Origin: an uncultured Pseudomonadota bacterium
GTDB taxonomy: Bacteria; Myxococcota_A; Bradymonadia; Bradymonadales; Bradymonadaceae
Assembly (NCBI GenBank): GCA_950059285.1
Contig: CATLTV010000028.1
Coordinates: forward strand, 1-38,103
Length of the DNA: 38,103 bases
Direction: 5' to 3'
The position numbers and the translations under genes are program-made. A model generated the notes under the pieces. That model was not told where the DNA came from. It searched no databases and was given only the letters and a program-made list of their open reading frames with translations. Shown here one piece after another: positions 20,045 through 30,083 of this stretch; position 1 is the stretch's first letter, and each line of letters opens with the position of its first letter.

Positions 20045-20923
20045 CTAGCTTGAGGTGTCTATCTTCTGATGTAGCCTCTTCAGGACATCACTTCTGAAAT
20101 GCTCTTGGTAATTGGGGTCAAATGCATAGCCCTTGATGTAGATCATTGAAGGAGCTTCTCCTCTGGATGTGCTCTCAAGGAAGACCTCTGGTTTATGGCG
20201 AGGGGATGCTAGTGGGCTAAGGATGGCGATTTCAAGTGCTTGTGCCATGACCAGATCGACGTTGGCTCCTTCCGGGAGCTGAATCCCTATTTTACACGCT
20301 GAATCGCTACCATCTCCGCTCAGATTTGCGACGCGTTGTGTCAGAAGATGCTCATGAGGAATGTCATGTAATGTGCCGTCAACGGCTCTGAGACGAGTTG
20401 AGCGCAGACCAAAATGTACGATGTCTCCTTCAAGGCCATCAAGTCGAACGGAGTCGCCAATTTCCAGGTGGTGTTCCAGTGTCAGTGCGATGCCTGCGAG
20501 GATGCTTTTGAGCCAGCTGCTGTTGAGGAAGATCAGCGCAGCAAAGACGAGCGCTCCACACAATAGCCATGCGATGGACTCTGTGCGTACAAGTACGACC
20601 GTGCTCAGCGCGATGCCAATTCCCCACAGTATGACATGTCCCGTAGGGAGCCATCTCTTGACTCTTTCTGCCACACGCAGTTTGCCAAACCTGTAGATCA
20701 GGAAGCTCATGATCGTGACGCCTATCCAGATGGGAACAAGTCCATAGGGTAGGGGTGGTGTGTCATCAGGCTCAAGAATTGGCTCGGCAACCTCAATGGT
20801 CGTCTCTTCTGCCTGTACTGAAACCTCATCAGGTTCCGTTGGAGTATCGATGTGATCCTGTTGGTCGTGTTGTTCTGCGTGCTCTGTATGTGTGTTTGTA
20901 GCTGTGTTGTGTGTATCAGGCAT
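20045..20923 (-). CDS. MscS-family mechanosensitive channel-like protein
   Basis: 292 residues. The first 60 or so are hydrophilic and rich in His, Glu, Gln and Thr. Three membrane segments follow (LVPIWIGVTIMSFLIYRF; VILWGIGIALSTVVLV; SIAWLLCGALVFAALIFLNSSWLKSILAGIALTLEH), the last continuing into the MscS beta domain (LEIGDSVRLDGLEGDIVHFGLRSTRLRAVDGTLHDIPHEHLL). The TM3 helix lacks the regular Gly/Ala packing pattern of E. coli MscS, so conductance may differ. The ATG is preceded by AGGGGG 5 bases away and lies 9 bases after the stop of the antiporter-ATPase gene, so it is the last gene of that operon. It could release ions or osmolytes in step with the antiporter. Confidence 0.88.
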   Translation of the reverse strand: MPDTHNTATNTHTEHAEQHDQQDHIDTPTEPDEVSVQAEETTIEVAEPILEPDDTPPLPYGLVPIWIGVTIMSFLIYRFGKLRVAERVKRWLPTGHVILWGIGIALSTVVLVRTESIAWLLCGALVFAALIFLNSSWLKSILAGIALTLEHHLEIGDSVRLDGLEGDIVHFGLRSTRLRAVDGTLHDIPHEHLLTQRVANLSGDGSDSACKIGIQLPEGANVDLVMAQALEIAILSPLASPRHKPEVFLESTSRGEAPSMIYIKGYAFDPNYQEHFRSDVLKRLHQKIDTSS

Positions 20924-20932
20924 GAGACCCCC

Positions 20933-23900
20933 TTAAATCAGGTTGCGCTGGCGCAGTTGTGAACTCAAATCCACGATGGCCATATCACAAATGCGATAGC
21001 TTTCATGGGCACTGCCCGCAATTCTTTCAATGATGCCAAAGCGCTCCAAATGCTGAAGCTCATTTTGCACAAACTCCTGAGAATGATTGATGATATTACT
21101 GATCGTTGCTTGATCAAGCGTGCCATGTTGGATCAACGCAGCAAGAATGATGCGTTTGTGCAATGTCATGGGCTCAATGTATTCCACGGTGTGCTCGGGC
21201 AAAGGTTCGACATGGATACACGTCTCTTTTTCTTCATCAAGACTTGAGGAGTGTAGCCATAACAGAAGAGCTTGCAGCGGGTTTCCGTGGCTGAGTTGAT
21301 ACAGCTTTTTGAGGAAGTCCTTCTTGGGGTTTCTCCTCATCTCGGAGGTGCTAATTGGATGTTGAGCACGTTGAAGTAATCTTGGTTGTGGCGTGTCAAA
21401 TGTCAGGTCAAAGCCGCTGACTCTATGACGGTTCATGATCATTTCTGCCAATTCATCTTCCTTGAATGGTTCCACTTCAAAGGTGTGTGTGAAGTAGTCT
21501 TCAAGATCGATGATGGTGTTCAGCAGTGTGACCGCAGGTGTGTCCATGAGTACAATCCACAAGATCTTGTCACTGCTTGAGTTGAGCAGGGACATGAACT
21601 TACGGCAAAGCTCAATGCCTTCCTGTGTGCGCCAGTAGGTTTTGATGGCGTTCTCTACAATGATGATCTGTCGTTTGTTCTGATCCTGTAATCTCTGGCA
21701 GATTTGATCCAGATTCTGGATGTTGTCTTGGAAGAGAGGTGCAAACGCCCTGCAAATGTCAGCTTCGGACTGGGCATCTTCAGGGATGCTGATGGTTTCA
21801 ATAGATGTCTGTTGGAACACAGGGTTGAGATCGTACACCTTGATGGGTACGAGGTTATGGATAAACGTGCGCTTACCGATGCCTCGTTCACCTTTGATCA
21901 AGATTGTATTGTGGTCACCATAACCCCAGTCACATACAGCTCTCAAACACTTCTTCTCTAGCTCAGGACGTTCCACATAGAACTCTGGAAGATCAAGAGG
22001 TACGGGGTTGAAGAGCCTCCTGTAGACAGGGGGAAGATTGCGTCTTCTGCGTTGGGCGCGAGGATCTTGTAGGCGAGCGCGGATCTGGTTGCGCTCAGGT
22101 GTCGTGGACTTATCGCTGAGCATCTGTTGGAGATCCTCAATGAACTCGCTGTACAGAGGTTTGACGCGTTGATACTGGCGGTCTGCCCAGTTGATTGGAT
22201 ATGCCATGATACGACCAAAGGGTGTTTTGCCCTGATATCGTACGGGAATATCCTCGTTTTTGGACAGGCTCCTGATGACTACATCAAGCTGATGGTTTGT
22301 AAACGGTTTGGCGGTTTGCTCCAGTAGTTTGGATGTTTGTTCAAGCATCCAACCTTCGATCATGACGAGGTCATGATTCAACGTCTCGGAGAGTTGTTGA
22401 ATCGTTTCTGTCAGGAGGAGCAAGCGTTGCTTCATCTCAGCGTCATGCGTGTCGCCAGGCTCTTTACTTGCTTCTGTCTGGGAGCCGTTTTGCTCGGGTT
22501 GCAGAATGGGACGTTCTTCCAACAGTGCTTCAATGGGTTCGGTGAGGATGCTTTGCAGTCCTTCAAGACCCACGAGGTTGCGTCTTACGATGCGTTGATG
22601 TTGTTCATTGAACTCGATATAGCGCAACGATAACTCGGAGACGAGCTTGGTGCTAAACCACTTGCGCACCTGGATGGACAGCGACTCTGAGCGCTGTTCA
22701 CTGGGTTGTGTGTCGTAAGGATCATCCTTGAGCAAACGCAGGTGCTCAGAGAAGCTCGCCACGCGGTACTCAAGTGCATCGATGAGTCGTCTTGATGTGA
22801 CTCCTTGAAGGACTTGAGTGAGCTCGCGATCAAGTGCTCGCTGGATGCTACGCAGTGTGGGGAAGATCTCCTTGCGATACCACTCTGTCCAGTCTGGCTG
22901 GAAGTCATCTTCTGGGTCTTTGAATCGGTCGAGCGCGTCCTGGCTACGTTGAGCCATGGTGCGGAGTTGTCGACTGTATTTCTCTTCAAAGAACGAGGTG
23001 TGTGAGTCAATAATACGCTTTTGATAATGCCCAAACCAGTTGGTAAAGAGCGCCAGTTGGTGTTCCAGAACAATCCAGCCTACATAAGCATTGATTGCTT
23101 CACGCTCGCGTTGGAGCTGTGTGGTGAGCTGGTTTTCTGCAAGACGAGCGTCATCAAACTTTTTGGATGGACGATAGATAACGCCAGGCAATTCAAGTGT
23201 GCCTGCGTGTTTTACCGCATGAAGGAACGAGCTATACGCTTGTTGTAAACTCCAGGAGTAGCCGCCCATGGCATCGCGTAGCCACTGGTTCAGGTTTGCG
23301 AGTACAGATTCTGCGCTCTCTTGATGATGTGTTTGTGCATCGCGGATGAATTGCAACGCACGTTGTCGTGGTGGCAACGAGGGATCAAGCTTTTTGATCA
23401 AGGGGGTGATGTCATGATTCTGTTCGGAGTGTTCATCCTCCTCAGACGCATGATTATCATGTTCTTCGTCATGCTCATTGGACTGTTGTGCAGATGGAAG
23501 CCCCAGCGCTTCTGGCGTAGAGTCTTGCTCCTTGTTTTGCTCAGTATCGTGTTGTTCTTCTGTGTCCTGTTCCTGAAGTTCTGGAAGTTTTGCAGGAATG
23601 AGGAGTTCTCGAAGTACAATGCTAAAGACTTCATCAAATCGGTGGAGGTACTGGCCAAGATCATACCAGTAGTACACATGTGATTGTGCCGAAACACTTG
23701 CCGCTTTCTCAAGGTAACGTGGGATGGAGAGTTCAATATAGAACCTCCAGAGTTTGCCAAGAGGAATATTGCGTCTTGTGGTTCCTACAAGAAAGCGCTG
23801 TGTGCTCCTGAGTCGACGTATGAGTTTGACCGTGCGTTGTTGAGCCTGTTGTGGGTCGTACAACGCTTCTTCAATTTCAACGACGTATTCCGAGTCAAAA

Positions 23901-25753
23901 GGTTCGACGTTTTGAATCTCGGAGATCAGCGCCATTGCTTGAGCAGGTTCAATTGCCAGAGGTTCAAGCTTTTCCCAGATCAGAATTGAGGGCTGAAGCT
24001 TGCGGCGTGATTGCATGTAAAGCGTTGTGATGGCGCGTTGTAGTGAGGCGAAGTCCTCGTAACGTTCTTCATTTTCAATCAGGTTCTCGAGTTTGGTGAG
24101 TGTTTCAGAGACGTCCTGTTGAATCTGATGGATGCTTTCTTCAAGTTTGCCACGGCGTGTTTCCAGAGGTTCTGCAATCTTTGTTTTATGAAGCGAGATA
24201 AGGTGTTCTCGCATCTCCATCAAGCGATTATTCAGGTGTGATGAATCAAGATCGGGCACAGGGAACTCTGCCATGGGGAGCGTTTCCTGTGCGGTGGTTT
24301 CGCCCTCACCTTGGCTATTTGCTTCAGCCTGAGACTCTTCGGTTTCGTTGGCCTTGCCCAGCGCAAACTTGAGCAGGGGAGGGCCAGCGATGATGTGTAC
24401 AACGACAGTGCCCACGACGACTGTTTGGAAGTCTGTTCCCCAAGCGAACAGGGGTTCTCCGGAGGCTGTGACTGCACTTGCGACCATTTCAGCGAGCACA
24501 AGATCGACGCCGCCACGCGAGATGAATGAGAGCCACAACCACCGTTGATGAACATCGCCCATGCCCAATTTTTTGGTGGCAAAACGTGTGCTTCCATAAT
24601 ACGCGCCAGCACGAAGTGCAGCGAGGATGAGTGTAATTGGCAAGTAGGCCACAACACCCATAATATCAAGCTTTGCGGCTTGAATCATGAAGTACACAAT
24701 GAACACAGGCGTACTGATCTTCTCCAGTTCATGAATAAGATCGTGCCCATGCTTTGAGAAGTTCTGGACAATAAAGCCTGCTGTCAAAAACGCGAGCAGC
24801 GTTTCAGCATGTAATACTTTGCTCAGGAACGATGCCGCAAAGATCACACCAATGGTGAAGAGCATCATCTCCTTGCGCACGTAGCGCATATAAAGGATGA
24901 AGATCAGCCCTGTTGCAGCACCAATGACAAACGCCCAACCAAACTCAAGTCCAATCCCAGGCAATGCTTCAGCAAGCTTTTCAAAGCTGAAACCATCAGG
25001 TGCGACAAGCAGCTTGGAGATGTTGAACCCAACAAGGAAAAAGGCGACCAGGACAAGGTCGGCCACAACCACAATACCAAGTGAAAGTGATGTGAACTTA
25101 CCTTTGGCTCGGGTTTCCTGGATGATCGCGAGCGTGGCTGCGGGACTCATCGCCATGGCGAGAATACCAAACAAAATCGCAGCGCCAAGCCTTGATGGTG
25201 TCGGGGCTCCATTGAGGAATGTGGCAAGCTCTACAGGGAGATAAGGAATGCTCATCACCACGCCAATTGTGATTGGAATCGCGGTGATTACCATCATCGA
25301 AATGGTCGCAAGAATGACCTTCCAGCTCTCCTTGATGTCAGAGATCTTGAGTTCGCCACCACCCATGGTGCCGATCACGCCGACAGTCAGCACGTTGATC
25401 AGGTAGAGATCATCGATGACCTTGTTGCTAAAGAGCGCACGTGGCGCGCGATCGCCGTAGATTTGATAGGTGAGCTGCGGGCTCAGATCCTTGAGGAACT
25501 CATAGATGATCTGAATGAGCTGAGGACCAAAGATGATGCCTGCTGCAATGTAACCCAGGAGTGCAGGAATCTTGAACTTTTTGAAGAGTTCACCCGTGGT
25601 GAACGCAGCGAGGATAATGAATCCAGTGGCCGCGAGGCTCTTGGGTGTAAAGGGTGGCTCATCACCAAGGTACTGCTCAAGAGGGACAAGGTTGAAGTCC
25701 TCCAGGCCGATCATCAAGGCGAGTAGAATTGCAATCGTAAGAATTTGCCACAT
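20933..25753 (-). CDS. CPA2 cation:proton antiporter fused to helical linker, P-loop ATPase and winged helix
   Basis: 1606 residues, several times the usual CPA2 length. Residues 1 to about 460 are a Kef-type antiporter membrane domain (KIPALLGYIAAGIIFGP, ILAMAMSPAATLAII) with the ion-binding Asp232 in VVVADLVLV. The usual RCK/TrkA domain is absent. About 465-1260 is mostly charged helix, with a disordered Glu/Gln/His-rich stretch near 731-784. An ATPase region begins near 1262 (EFYVERPELEKKCLRA) with Walker A GERGIGKRT at 1288-1296 and a Walker B-like RQIIIVEN at 1361-1368 that has Glu-Asn in place of Asp-Glu/Asp. A winged-helix-like C-terminus covers about 1527-1606. The fold resembles STAND/AAA-type sensors, but the class is uncertain. 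Its ATG overlaps the upstream stop (TGATG), so translation is coupled. No frameshift or stop is seen; it reads as one intact fusion. Confidence 0.9.
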   Translation of the reverse strand: MWQILTIAILLALMIGLEDFNLVPLEQYLGDEPPFTPKSLAATGFIILAAFTTGELFKKFKIPALLGYIAAGIIFGPQLIQIIYEFLKDLSPQLTYQIYGDRAPRALFSNKVIDDLYLINVLTVGVIGTMGGGELKISDIKESWKVILATISMMVITAIPITIGVVMSIPYLPVELATFLNGAPTPSRLGAAILFGILAMAMSPAATLAIIQETRAKGKFTSLSLGIVVVADLVLVAFFLVGFNISKLLVAPDGFSFEKLAEALPGIGLEFGWAFVIGAATGLIFILYMRYVRKEMMLFTIGVIFAASFLSKVLHAETLLAFLTAGFIVQNFSKHGHDLIHELEKISTPVFIVYFMIQAAKLDIMGVVAYLPITLILAALRAGAYYGSTRFATKKLGMGDVHQRWLWLSFISRGGVDLVLAEMVASAVTASGEPLFAWGTDFQTVVVGTVVVHIIAGPPLLKFALGKANETEESQAEANSQGEGETTAQETLPMAEFPVPDLDSSHLNNRLMEMREHLISLHKTKIAEPLETRRGKLEESIHQIQQDVSETLTKLENLIENEERYEDFASLQRAITTLYMQSRRKLQPSILIWEKLEPLAIEPAQAMALISEIQNVEPFDSEYVVEIEEALYDPQQAQQRTVKLIRRLRSTQRFLVGTTRRNIPLGKLWRFYIELSIPRYLEKAASVSAQSHVYYWYDLGQYLHRFDEVFSIVLRELLIPAKLPELQEQDTEEQHDTEQNKEQDSTPEALGLPSAQQSNEHDEEHDNHASEEDEHSEQNHDITPLIKKLDPSLPPRQRALQFIRDAQTHHQESAESVLANLNQWLRDAMGGYSWSLQQAYSSFLHAVKHAGTLELPGVIYRPSKKFDDARLAENQLTTQLQREREAINAYVGWIVLEHQLALFTNWFGHYQKRIIDSHTSFFEEKYSRQLRTMAQRSQDALDRFKDPEDDFQPDWTEWYRKEIFPTLRSIQRALDRELTQVLQGVTSRRLIDALEYRVASFSEHLRLLKDDPYDTQPSEQRSESLSIQVRKWFSTKLVSELSLRYIEFNEQHQRIVRRNLVGLEGLQSILTEPIEALLEERPILQPEQNGSQTEASKEPGDTHDAEMKQRLLLLTETIQQLSETLNHDLVMIEGWMLEQTSKLLEQTAKPFTNHQLDVVIRSLSKNEDIPVRYQGKTPFGRIMAYPINWADRQYQRVKPLYSEFIEDLQQMLSDKSTTPERNQIRARLQDPRAQRRRRNLPPVYRRLFNPVPLDLPEFYVERPELEKKCLRAVCDWGYGDHNTILIKGERGIGKRTFIHNLVPIKVYDLNPVFQQTSIETISIPEDAQSEADICRAFAPLFQDNIQNLDQICQRLQDQNKRQIIIVENAIKTYWRTQEGIELCRKFMSLLNSSSDKILWIVLMDTPAVTLLNTIIDLEDYFTHTFEVEPFKEDELAEMIMNRHRVSGFDLTFDTPQPRLLQRAQHPISTSEMRRNPKKDFLKKLYQLSHGNPLQALLLWLHSSSLDEEKETCIHVEPLPEHTVEYIEPMTLHKRIILAALIQHGTLDQATISNIINHSQEFVQNELQHLERFGIIERIAGSAHESYRICDMAIVDLSSQLRQRNLI

Positions 25754-27441: not shown

Positions 27442-27514
27442 CCAAAGAAAGTGGCCCATCAGGGGGCGAGTGTTGCGCAGCAACACTCGCCCCCTGATGG
27501 GCCACTTTCTTTGG
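27442..27514 (-). terminator. 73-base palindromic terminator after the HEAT-repeat gene
   Basis: Perfect 35-bp arms (27442-27476 with 27480-27514) and a 3-base loop, starting 12 bases after the stop codon at 27527. The outer arms are CCAAAGAAAG/CTTTCTTTGG, so a U-rich tract lies inside the stem. The inner arm contains GGGGGCGAG. Confidence 0.85.
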
Positions 27515-27526
27515 TGAGAAAAAGGT

Positions 27527-28111
27527 TTACCTGATCTCAATAAGCATCTGCTTCATGTGCTCCTTGACCCAGTTATTGGTCTCGGTCTCAAGGGCTTTTT
27601 TAATCGCAGATTTACTGGCTGGAGTGTTAATCCGTCCGAGCGCATCGACCGCGGTGTAGCGGACCTGCTCATCTGTGGATGAGAGGTAAGGAGTTGCCCA
27701 TGAGGTGGCAAGTGTCTTGTCGAGGTGTTTGCTGGAGATGGTGAGGAGCTGGTGAAGCATCAGATCCTGTTCATCCACGGATGCAAACAACCCATCAAAC
27801 AACGCGACAGTGCGTTTGGATGGCCAGTAAGCGGCCAGTGCTTCCAGCGCGCGATAACGGTGCGCCTTGAAGACAGTGGTGTCCTTGGCGATGGTGATGA
27901 GGTCTTGCTCGGGTGTTGCGCTTGCTTTGGCAAAGAGATCCTCGGAAGGAAGCTCGTGATAAGCGGACAACAACCTGATGAGCTTGACGTTGCTTGCTGA
28001 TTTGCTCGTCTTTGTGGCCTGCTGTGCATGTGCATCTTGTGCAGGAAGTGCTGCGACAAGAGGCATGCTCACGATGGTTGCGACGAGGAATGTTTTGAGT
28101 GTGGTTTTCAT
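27527..28111 (-). CDS. Exported HEAT-repeat protein
   Basis: 194 residues, function unknown. A signal peptide (FLVATIVSMPLVAALPAQDAHA, cut before QQA) is followed by helical repeats. The clearest HEAT-like unit is YLSSTDEQVRYTAVDALGRINTPASKSAIKKALETE, and an earlier one is VFKAHRYRALEALAAYWPSKRTVALFDGLFA. HEAT solenoids usually bind other proteins. The ribosome binding site AAAGGA overlaps the end of the metalloprotease gene, which stops 4 bases before this ATG, so the two are co-translated. It may be a periplasmic partner or chaperone of that protease; this is inferred from gene order only. A long palindrome ends the transcript. Confidence 0.82.
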   Translation of the reverse strand: MKTTLKTFLVATIVSMPLVAALPAQDAHAQQATKTSKSASNVKLIRLLSAYHELPSEDLFAKASATPEQDLITIAKDTTVFKAHRYRALEALAAYWPSKRTVALFDGLFASVDEQDLMLHQLLTISSKHLDKTLATSWATPYLSSTDEQVRYTAVDALGRINTPASKSAIKKALETETNNWVKEHMKQMLIEIR

Positions 28112-28115
28112 ATGT

Positions 28116-30083
28116 TTAGTCCTTTGTCAGTGGGTTGACGCCAATGACATAGCTCTGGTTTGGTGTGACGTCTGTATGTGTGACGCCAGCCAGAGGGAAC
28201 ATCAAGTTATCAATATCGGGACAGTTGTCGGGGAACTGGTTGCGGCCACATACGGGTGTGTCCGTGAGTGGGTCCTGTCCCTGTGCGAACTGCTCGGTGG
28301 TGTGGAAGAGTCCAAGGTAGTGACCAAGCTCGTGCGCCATCACAACACCTGTGTATTCGTTGCCATTGGTCTGGCCTGAGCTAGGATCGTTAAATGTCTG
28401 TCCAAGGAACTCGCTGGTGAAGACCACGCCGCTTGCGCCTGTGCCATGAATACCAGCGGGGCCAGGGAGTCCCTGGGAGATACCGATGGTGCCACCACCC
28501 AGTGAGATGTTGCGCACAAAGAAGACGTTCAGGCTGAGCGCATCATCTGCGGTCTGACCTGGAACCTGACTCAATGCTACCAGCTCGGAGATGTCATCCT
28601 CGGTGCGAATGACACGATAGCTCTGTGCATCTGCGCCCGTGATATCAAAGTATCGCACGGTGCCAAGGCTGATGTTTGCTGCGGTGTAGATGTTTGAGAA
28701 CGCAGCGAGCGTGGCCTGAAGGTTTGTGTTTGTGGGGGCCTGTGCTGCGGTGATGTTTGGCACACCGACAAGGTAGATGTTCAGGTCGATTGTTGTGCCT
28801 GGAGTGGACTCCTCCAACACGTAGTGGCAGACATTTTGAGATTCTGCGTAAATGGTGTGTTGATGTGTGCCTGCCTGAAGTTGGTTTGCAAATTCGGGCT
28901 TGGCAGGAGTGGGGATGGGGCTGACAAACTTGAAGATCTGGGCGGTGGTGTTTTGGTACGAGTTACCACCCTGGAAATAGTTGATAGTTGTGTTGTTTGG
29001 CAGCGCGGTAGTGTCTGCTGCGATCTGCTGACCATCCATCGCCAACGTGGTGACCATGTATGCTGTGGTTTGTGGGGAGATCGTGTAGTCAAACGTATGG
29101 CTCTGCTGCTGTGGGTTTGTTGGAGCACCACAGGTGAGCGCGATCGGGTAAGTTGCAGGATCAAGTGTCAAGGGCTCGCTTGGATCTGGGACACAGAAGC
29201 CCTGGCCGCCACCCACAGGCTGACAGACGTAGTTTGTGCGACAATCACTGGTGCTCTGACACATGCGGACACAGAAGTTAGGTCCCTGAGGGTTCTGGTA
29301 ACAGCGGTTGTCCACGCCCTCTGTGGCGCAGTCTCGTCTGTTTTGACAGTTCATTGTAGTGCAGTAACCTTGTGGCCAGCCATCTTCATCGGGGATGCAT
29401 GTGCCACCTTCACAGTCAGTGTCTGCACTGCACGCCTCGCCATCGTTGACCGCAACAGAGACAGGATCTCGTGTTGGCAAACAGAAGGTGTCACCTGAAG
29501 TGTCCTGGTCTGCTGCACGACAGTCATAACCTTCACGGCAGGAGCTAAATCCTGGCTGTGGATTGGGGTTGCAGGGCTGTGCGCAAAAAGGTGTGCCATC
29601 AAGCACGGAGTCGTTGATACAAGAGCCACCTGATTGTGAACAGGCAAGATCATCATCACACTCAACACGTGAACAGTAATTGCCTTCCCAGATGACAGGA
29701 CTTTGATCGGGCAGGCATGATCCGCCAATGCACTCGTCATTAGTTTCACATGGAGCACCTGTTGTAAGACCTTCTGGTCCAAGGTCAGGTTCGCCAAAAT
29801 CGGGTTCGCCAAAATCGGGCTCGCCAAAGTCGGGCTGTCCAAGATCCACAGGACCCATGTCTTCCTCAACAGGTGGTCCCATATCTTCCGATGGCAGCAT
29901 GTCAGATACAACAGGCGTCATGTCTGCGGGCTCAGGTGTAGGCTCAACGAGGTTCCATTCATTGAGATCCCAGGGGGAACCATCTGTTTGTGAGGGGTCC
30001 TCTGCGCCACAGGCAGATAGGAGTGAAAGTGTAACAAGGCCAAACAATCCTGTGTAAAGCCTCTGGTTTTGAGATGTTTTCAT
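28116..30083 (-). CDS. Zinc metalloprotease lipoprotein with Cys-rich modules
   Basis: 655 residues. The lipobox LSAC (Cys25) places it on the membrane surface. A disordered acidic linker carries DMGP and DFGEP repeats. Cys-rich modules follow over about 110-300 (CETNDECIGGSCLPD, CSADTDCEGGTCIPD, CQSTSDCRTNYVCQP), a style common in secreted proteins of Bradymonadia and Myxococcota. A beta-rich region and a C-terminal metzincin-type protease domain come last. The zinc motif HELGHYLGLFH has His584, His588 and His594 with Glu585 as the catalytic base; a downstream Met in NLMFP is a candidate Met-turn. The sequence fits a pappalysin/M43-like enzyme. Likely a surface or secreted protease for nutrition or predation. 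It heads a two-gene operon. Confidence 0.92.
   Translation of the reverse strand: MKTSQNQRLYTGLFGLVTLSLLSACGAEDPSQTDGSPWDLNEWNLVEPTPEPADMTPVVSDMLPSEDMGPPVEEDMGPVDLGQPDFGEPDFGEPDFGEPDLGPEGLTTGAPCETNDECIGGSCLPDQSPVIWEGNYCSRVECDDDLACSQSGGSCINDSVLDGTPFCAQPCNPNPQPGFSSCREGYDCRAADQDTSGDTFCLPTRDPVSVAVNDGEACSADTDCEGGTCIPDEDGWPQGYCTTMNCQNRRDCATEGVDNRCYQNPQGPNFCVRMCQSTSDCRTNYVCQPVGGGQGFCVPDPSEPLTLDPATYPIALTCGAPTNPQQQSHTFDYTISPQTTAYMVTTLAMDGQQIAADTTALPNNTTINYFQGGNSYQNTTAQIFKFVSPIPTPAKPEFANQLQAGTHQHTIYAESQNVCHYVLEESTPGTTIDLNIYLVGVPNITAAQAPTNTNLQATLAAFSNIYTAANISLGTVRYFDITGADAQSYRVIRTEDDISELVALSQVPGQTADDALSLNVFFVRNISLGGGTIGISQGLPGPAGIHGTGASGVVFTSEFLGQTFNDPSSGQTNGNEYTGVVMAHELGHYLGLFHTTEQFAQGQDPLTDTPVCGRNQFPDNCPDIDNLMFPLAGVTHTDVTPNQSYVIGVNPLTKD
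29789..29833 (-). repeat. Three 15-bp tandem repeats encoding DFGEP
   Basis: The unit GTTCGCCAAAATCGG occurs twice exactly (29789-29803, 29804-29818) and once with two changes (29819-29833). A diverged fourth unit follows. The units are in frame within the metalloprotease linker and encode the Asp-Phe-Gly-Glu-Pro repeats. Copy number may vary by slippage without breaking the frame. Confidence 0.85.

Follow-up and report, generated by a model that had tools for sequence, protein, structure and literature searches.

A CPA2-type antiporter fused to an AAA+/STAND-Orc-like ATPase module, and its conserved operon partnership with an MscS-type channel

The window analysed here (the whole stretch of 38,103 nucleotides) carries a gene in which a CPA2 antiporter is continued by a long helical arm, an ATPase module and a winged helix. 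The product is apparently an undescribed variant of the regulated CPA2 antiporters with a conserved ATPase-MscS partnership. It is encoded between a second CPA subunit and an MscS-type channel, and we consider it moderately likely that the three genes form an ion and osmotic homeostasis operon, in which the antiporter pair is gated by the nucleotide state of the ATPase module and coordinated with the channel. The features discussed below are:

20933..25753, minus strand: the 1606 aa fusion frame, encoding in order a CPA2 antiporter, a helical arm, an AAA+/STAND-Orc-like ATPase and a winged helix
24314..25753, minus strand: antiporter membrane domain, residues 1-480, with Asp232 and Arg381 (PF00999 5e-21; conservation)
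22034..24346, minus strand: helical arm in the cytoplasm, residues 470-1240, with an acidic linker between its two blocks (AlphaFold2)
20936..22048, minus strand: predicted ATPase module, residues 1236-1606, comprising a P-loop AAA+ domain, a lid with a GxP-like GNP motif and a winged helix
25753..27165, minus strand: divergent second CPA subunit, 470 aa (hhalign, synteny)
20045..20923, minus strand: MscS-type channel, 292 aa (MS_channel_2nd 1.1e-14)
27455..27501, no strand assigned: terminator-like hairpin with a 20-pair stem, setting the operon apart from the gene upstream

The fusion frame starts with ATG and, as originally predicted, runs through all 1606 residues without an internal stop; a stopped or frameshifted gene is ruled out by this unbroken translation. 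GC3 along the gene (0.45-0.61) is close to that of its neighbours, and together with the presence of the same fusion in many assemblies this rules out an assembly chimera. The fusion is found in 20 of the 21 genomes of the window's family (58 genomes were searched; contig ends interrupt several copies), among them single-contig ones, and in both Myxococcota and Bdellovibrionota, and is therefore not an assembly join. The original prediction, which had taken the fusion as real while raising the worry that long reads might reveal a stop or a join, had proposed looking for it in related genomes; its recurrence in unrelated assemblies and single-contig genomes speaks against a join, and the fusion extends to other orders and phyla. 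Records of the fusion come from Lujinxingia, Enhygromyxa, Paraliomyxa, Sandaracinus and many Myxococcota MAGs, and within Bdellovibrionota from Pseudobacteriovorax, Oligoflexia and Bacteriovoracaceae. The ATPase module is present in 132 of 379 genomes of the phylum. A first scan of the genome contigs with the C-terminal 355 residues alone returned nothing, and the fusion alignment did find relatives. Doubt would also have followed from halves that are always separate genes. CPA pairs free of the ATPase do exist, in Blastocatellia/Acidobacteria, Calditrichota and Aminicenantes (L084, L085, L135, L141, L142), but they fall outside the fusion clade and possibly represent the antiporter form that predates the fusion. 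A search of NCBIfam with the fusion gave matches far below cut-off only, among them a partial match to TIGR00932 (CPA2). The expectation that no such architecture had been described held for the open-access literature searched (most subscription papers lie outside it), where neither the architecture nor the operon is described.

The membrane domain has the hallmarks of a CPA2 antiporter, an Na_H_Exchanger domain with an ion-binding aspartate and a conserved basic residue. Residues 48-458 match PF00999 (E 5e-21), and Asp232, which had been singled out from the start, sits within ...LGIVVVADLVLV... and is an acid in 84/84 relatives (77 Asp, 7 Glu). Arg381 is equally invariant (84/84). The preceding position, 231, is Lys in 62 relatives and Ala in 13, none being acidic among the residues listed, so that the CPA motif reads Ala or Lys at position 6, Asp at position 7 and Arg at position 8. 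By the rules of Masrati et al. 2018 (PMC6181914), CPA2 proteins that lack an acidic residue at position 6 of the motif are expected to be electroneutral, and the fusion antiporter would, from its motif, be expected to be so too. The window's genome has three PF00999 antiporter genes, and two of them are such fusions.

RCK domains are known as gates of CPA2 antiporters. In the fusion no TrkA_N match indicative of an RCK/KTN domain was found with Pfam, and the AAA+ and winged-helix domains occupy its place; the proposal that a P-loop ATPase stands where Kef has RCK is thus supported, the predicted ATPase fold being conserved in relatives. The fusion resembles KefC and KefB in that its CPA2 membrane domain is followed at the C-terminus by a cytoplasmic control domain of nucleotide-binding type, in a K+ context. 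It differs from them in that an AAA+/STAND-like ATPase on a helical arm of about 760 residues replaces RCK/KTN, and its operon differs in containing a second CPA subunit and an MscS partner, with no KefF or KefG seen.

The arm is predicted to be extended and helical (AlphaFold2 mean pLDDT 82.9, pTM 0.75). A disordered acidic linker at about 734-779 divides it into two helical blocks; the original description of some 800 mainly helical residues therefore stands for helicity but not as one continuous stretch. No PDB match to the arm was listed at E below 1.6, and no known fold is assigned to it for that reason. The two blocks give a weak signal of internal repetition when aligned to each other (hhalign Prob 48).

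The ATPase module is predicted with high confidence (pLDDT 94.2, pTM 0.91) as an AAA+ P-loop domain followed by a lid and, at about 1528-1592, a winged helix, in agreement with the ATPase fold and winged-helix-like C-terminus first suggested for it. Its closest solved folds are those of Orc/Cdc6 proteins, 2qby_A (Z 16.8; 304 residues aligned, rmsd 9.0) and 1w5t_C (Z 16.7; 335 aligned, rmsd 5.7), with the STAND protein NLRC4 behind them (Z 14.2). In Pfam, 27 of 49 module relatives match AAA_16, 17/49 match AAA_22 and 16/49 match nSTAND1. The predicted module has the AAA+ and winged-helix fold that defines Orc/Cdc6, and also the STAND order of a P-loop NTPase and then a winged helix with a GxP-type motif, here GNP. 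It is unlike both in being carried C-terminally on a transporter, in an often altered P-loop, and in the absence of the superstructure repeat sensor that forms the C-terminus of STAND proteins; in the fusion, some 14 residues remain beyond the winged helix.

The operon partners had not entered the original prediction, nor had the frequent degeneracy of the P-loop. The second CPA subunit aligns to the antiporter domain with hhalign Prob 99.9, and its stop codon overlaps the start of the fusion (TGATG); the ATG of the MscS gene lies 9 bp past the fusion stop, and the ribosome sites in the operon are close by. The channel gene carries the beta domain typical of MscS, MscK and MscM (PF00924, 1.1e-14), a match shared by 43/43 scanned fusion neighbours. 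In the window's second CPA a Ser is aligned to Asp232, and Arg366 is kept in 76 of 77 relatives. A general loss of the acid from the upstream CPA is ruled out, as Asp or Glu is kept at the Asp232 position in 39/75 relatives. Gene neighbourhoods were counted over 69 loci with the fusion, each denominator being the loci with enough flank. All 63 informative loci have the second CPA upstream in the same orientation, and 56 of 59 have MscS downstream; in one family genome (L052/L077) the fusion has no adjoining MscS. TrkA and TrkH, whose identity was confirmed by Pfam in scanned loci, stand between the two CPA genes in 36/51 loci, so that many fusion operons contain the TrkAH system of K+ uptake, and 15/51, the window included, have no Trk adjoining. 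For example, a second copy in the window's own genome (L046, G000:C13:6000-19000) comprises five genes, CPA, TrkA, TrkH, fusion and MscS. To our knowledge, no operon has been described that couples Trk to both an antiporter and MscS. Pairwise identities of the operon members correlate (r 0.89-0.96), which is compatible with a complex, although shared ancestry alone could yield it. At one locus (L055/L078, G021:C162) an extra ATPase-arm protein and an MscS accompany a fusion whose Walker A is lost (GEPGHPPAS), and a division of labour between the extra protein and the fusion is possible there. Upstream of the operon in the window, the hairpin is near-perfect and has terminator-like features on both strands; beyond it a HEAT-repeat protein (27527-28111) adjoins a putative secreted metalloprotease (28116-30083) with weak reprolysin/M43 matches.

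The same module is found in a second family, where it ends proteins of about 900-1290 residues and a periplasmic coiled coil with several membrane helices replaces the antiporter. Each of the 35 loci examined for this family (L026-L044, L176-L195) has MscS downstream in the same orientation, directly next to the ATPase gene in 34 and at a distance of 3.5 kb in one, and all 35 neighbours match PF00924. The link between the ATPase module and MscS therefore does not depend on the antiporter. No clear membrane helices precede the module in two of the 35 proteins (L043, L189); the other 33 form one clade of the module tree with support 1.0. No useful PDB match was obtained by sequence for the N-terminal part of the family. 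Its layout of periplasmic coiled coil and membrane helices recalls MscK, with the difference that the channel has a gene of its own, apart from that of the coiled-coil/membrane part, which ends in an ATPase. At L028, L031, L032 and L033, plus-strand genes similar in size (about 350, 247 and 264 aa) recur beside the coiled-coil ATPase gene.

From the computed fusion, folds, motifs and conserved operon we infer a mechanism in which the fusion and the second CPA would pair as a heterodimer that exchanges a monovalent cation, probably K+, for protons in an electroneutral manner; K+ is suggested by the neighbouring genes rather than by a selectivity motif. The arm would bear the STAND/Orc-type module, whose nucleotide state (bound or unbound, or oligomerised) would open or block the antiporter, the role that RCK has in Kef. 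In KefC, the RCK domains dock on the transporter and thereby inhibit it (PMC11150392). The ATPase module of the fusion may also contact, control or sense the adjoining MscS-type channel, physical contact being suggested by gene order, and cation exchange would thereby be coordinated with solute release through MscS. The Trk genes in many of the operons, together with the saline habitats of Bradymonadales (PMC7188933), support a role in potassium and osmotic homeostasis. A bolder form of the proposal, possible though doubtful, has a single STAND-type module gate a heterodimeric antiporter and MscS directly, all within one supercomplex switched by nucleotide, with Trk nearby in many relatives; the coiled-coil version would act likewise without the antiporter.

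The P-loop bears directly on how the module could work. Walker A (GERGIGKRT, 1288-1296) lies where it had been placed, and the Walker B-like IIIVEN noted with it is at 1363-1368. Walker A is not canonical: Arg1295 occupies the Ser/Thr position, and GERGIGKR does not match GxxxxGK[ST]. Among 68 fusions the P-loop is canonical in 17, GKR[ST] in 12 (the window's clade), GKA in 19, GR in 12 and otherwise altered in 8. With Arg for Ser/Thr in Walker A and Glu-Asn at Walker B, ATP binding in the window's clade is putative. Since the P-loop is so often non-canonical, the module may work by something other than ATP hydrolysis. The pattern of change would be less expected of a powered motor than of a switch set by nucleotide state or of a site where nucleotide has a structural role, and the motifs suggest that the module acts as a switch. 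The 51 of 68 non-canonical P-loops, with the motif lost outright in one fusion (L078), could also be taken to mean that the ATPase fold is a relic and that the arm merely tethers the antiporter, its partner CPA and MscS in one complex. This is rather unlikely, given that the three P-loop glycines are kept in at least 66/68 fusions and Lys or Arg in 65/68, that the fold is confidently predicted, and that 25 of the 35 MscS-linked coiled-coil relatives (counted from motifs) have a canonical Walker A.

STAND-like folds are common in bacterial immune NTPases, and a channel or an antiporter could plausibly serve as effector, so the module might instead sense infection and open both, collapsing gradients and stopping growth. 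Such a defence role, raised as an option by the original prediction, now appears distinctly improbable. PADLOC gives the fusion weak helix-turn-helix matches only, the module has no relatives in the plasmid or phage records searched, and its P-loop is often degenerate. The fusion is near-universal in the family and shares many of its operons with K+ uptake genes, and these points, with the lack of relatives in the plasmid and phage records, favour homeostasis over defence.

The winged helix resembles those of MarR, TrmB and ArsR, and the Orc/Cdc6-like fold binds DNA in Orc, from which one could picture a membrane-bound transcription regulator sensing through its antiporter domain. On average the winged helix carries a net charge of -1 in the fusions and -2.6 in the coiled-coil family; in the window it carries -2, and the recognition-helix region is about neutral. 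This neutral to acidic character makes DNA binding less likely, the ion-exchange residues are kept, and we regard the regulator as very unlikely. CPA transporters are driven by ion gradients, no coupling is known for such a fold and its catalytic residues are often replaced, so that uphill ion movement powered by the ATPase is hardly credible despite the covalent joining of a P-loop ATPase to a transporter.

A homeostatic operon switched by nucleotide state thus stays the preferred reading, and it raises a direct question, whether the module gates the antiporter, MscS or both, about a partnership that gene order predicts in many genomes. MscS channels are viewed mainly as tension-gated valves; if the supercomplex exists, their opening would be under metabolic control and would not follow membrane tension alone. 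The fusion operon is probably a new way to control cell potassium and osmotic balance in predatory bacteria of saline habitats and in many of their relatives. If so, much of a large bacterial phylum would set its potassium and turgor through a nucleotide-switched module.
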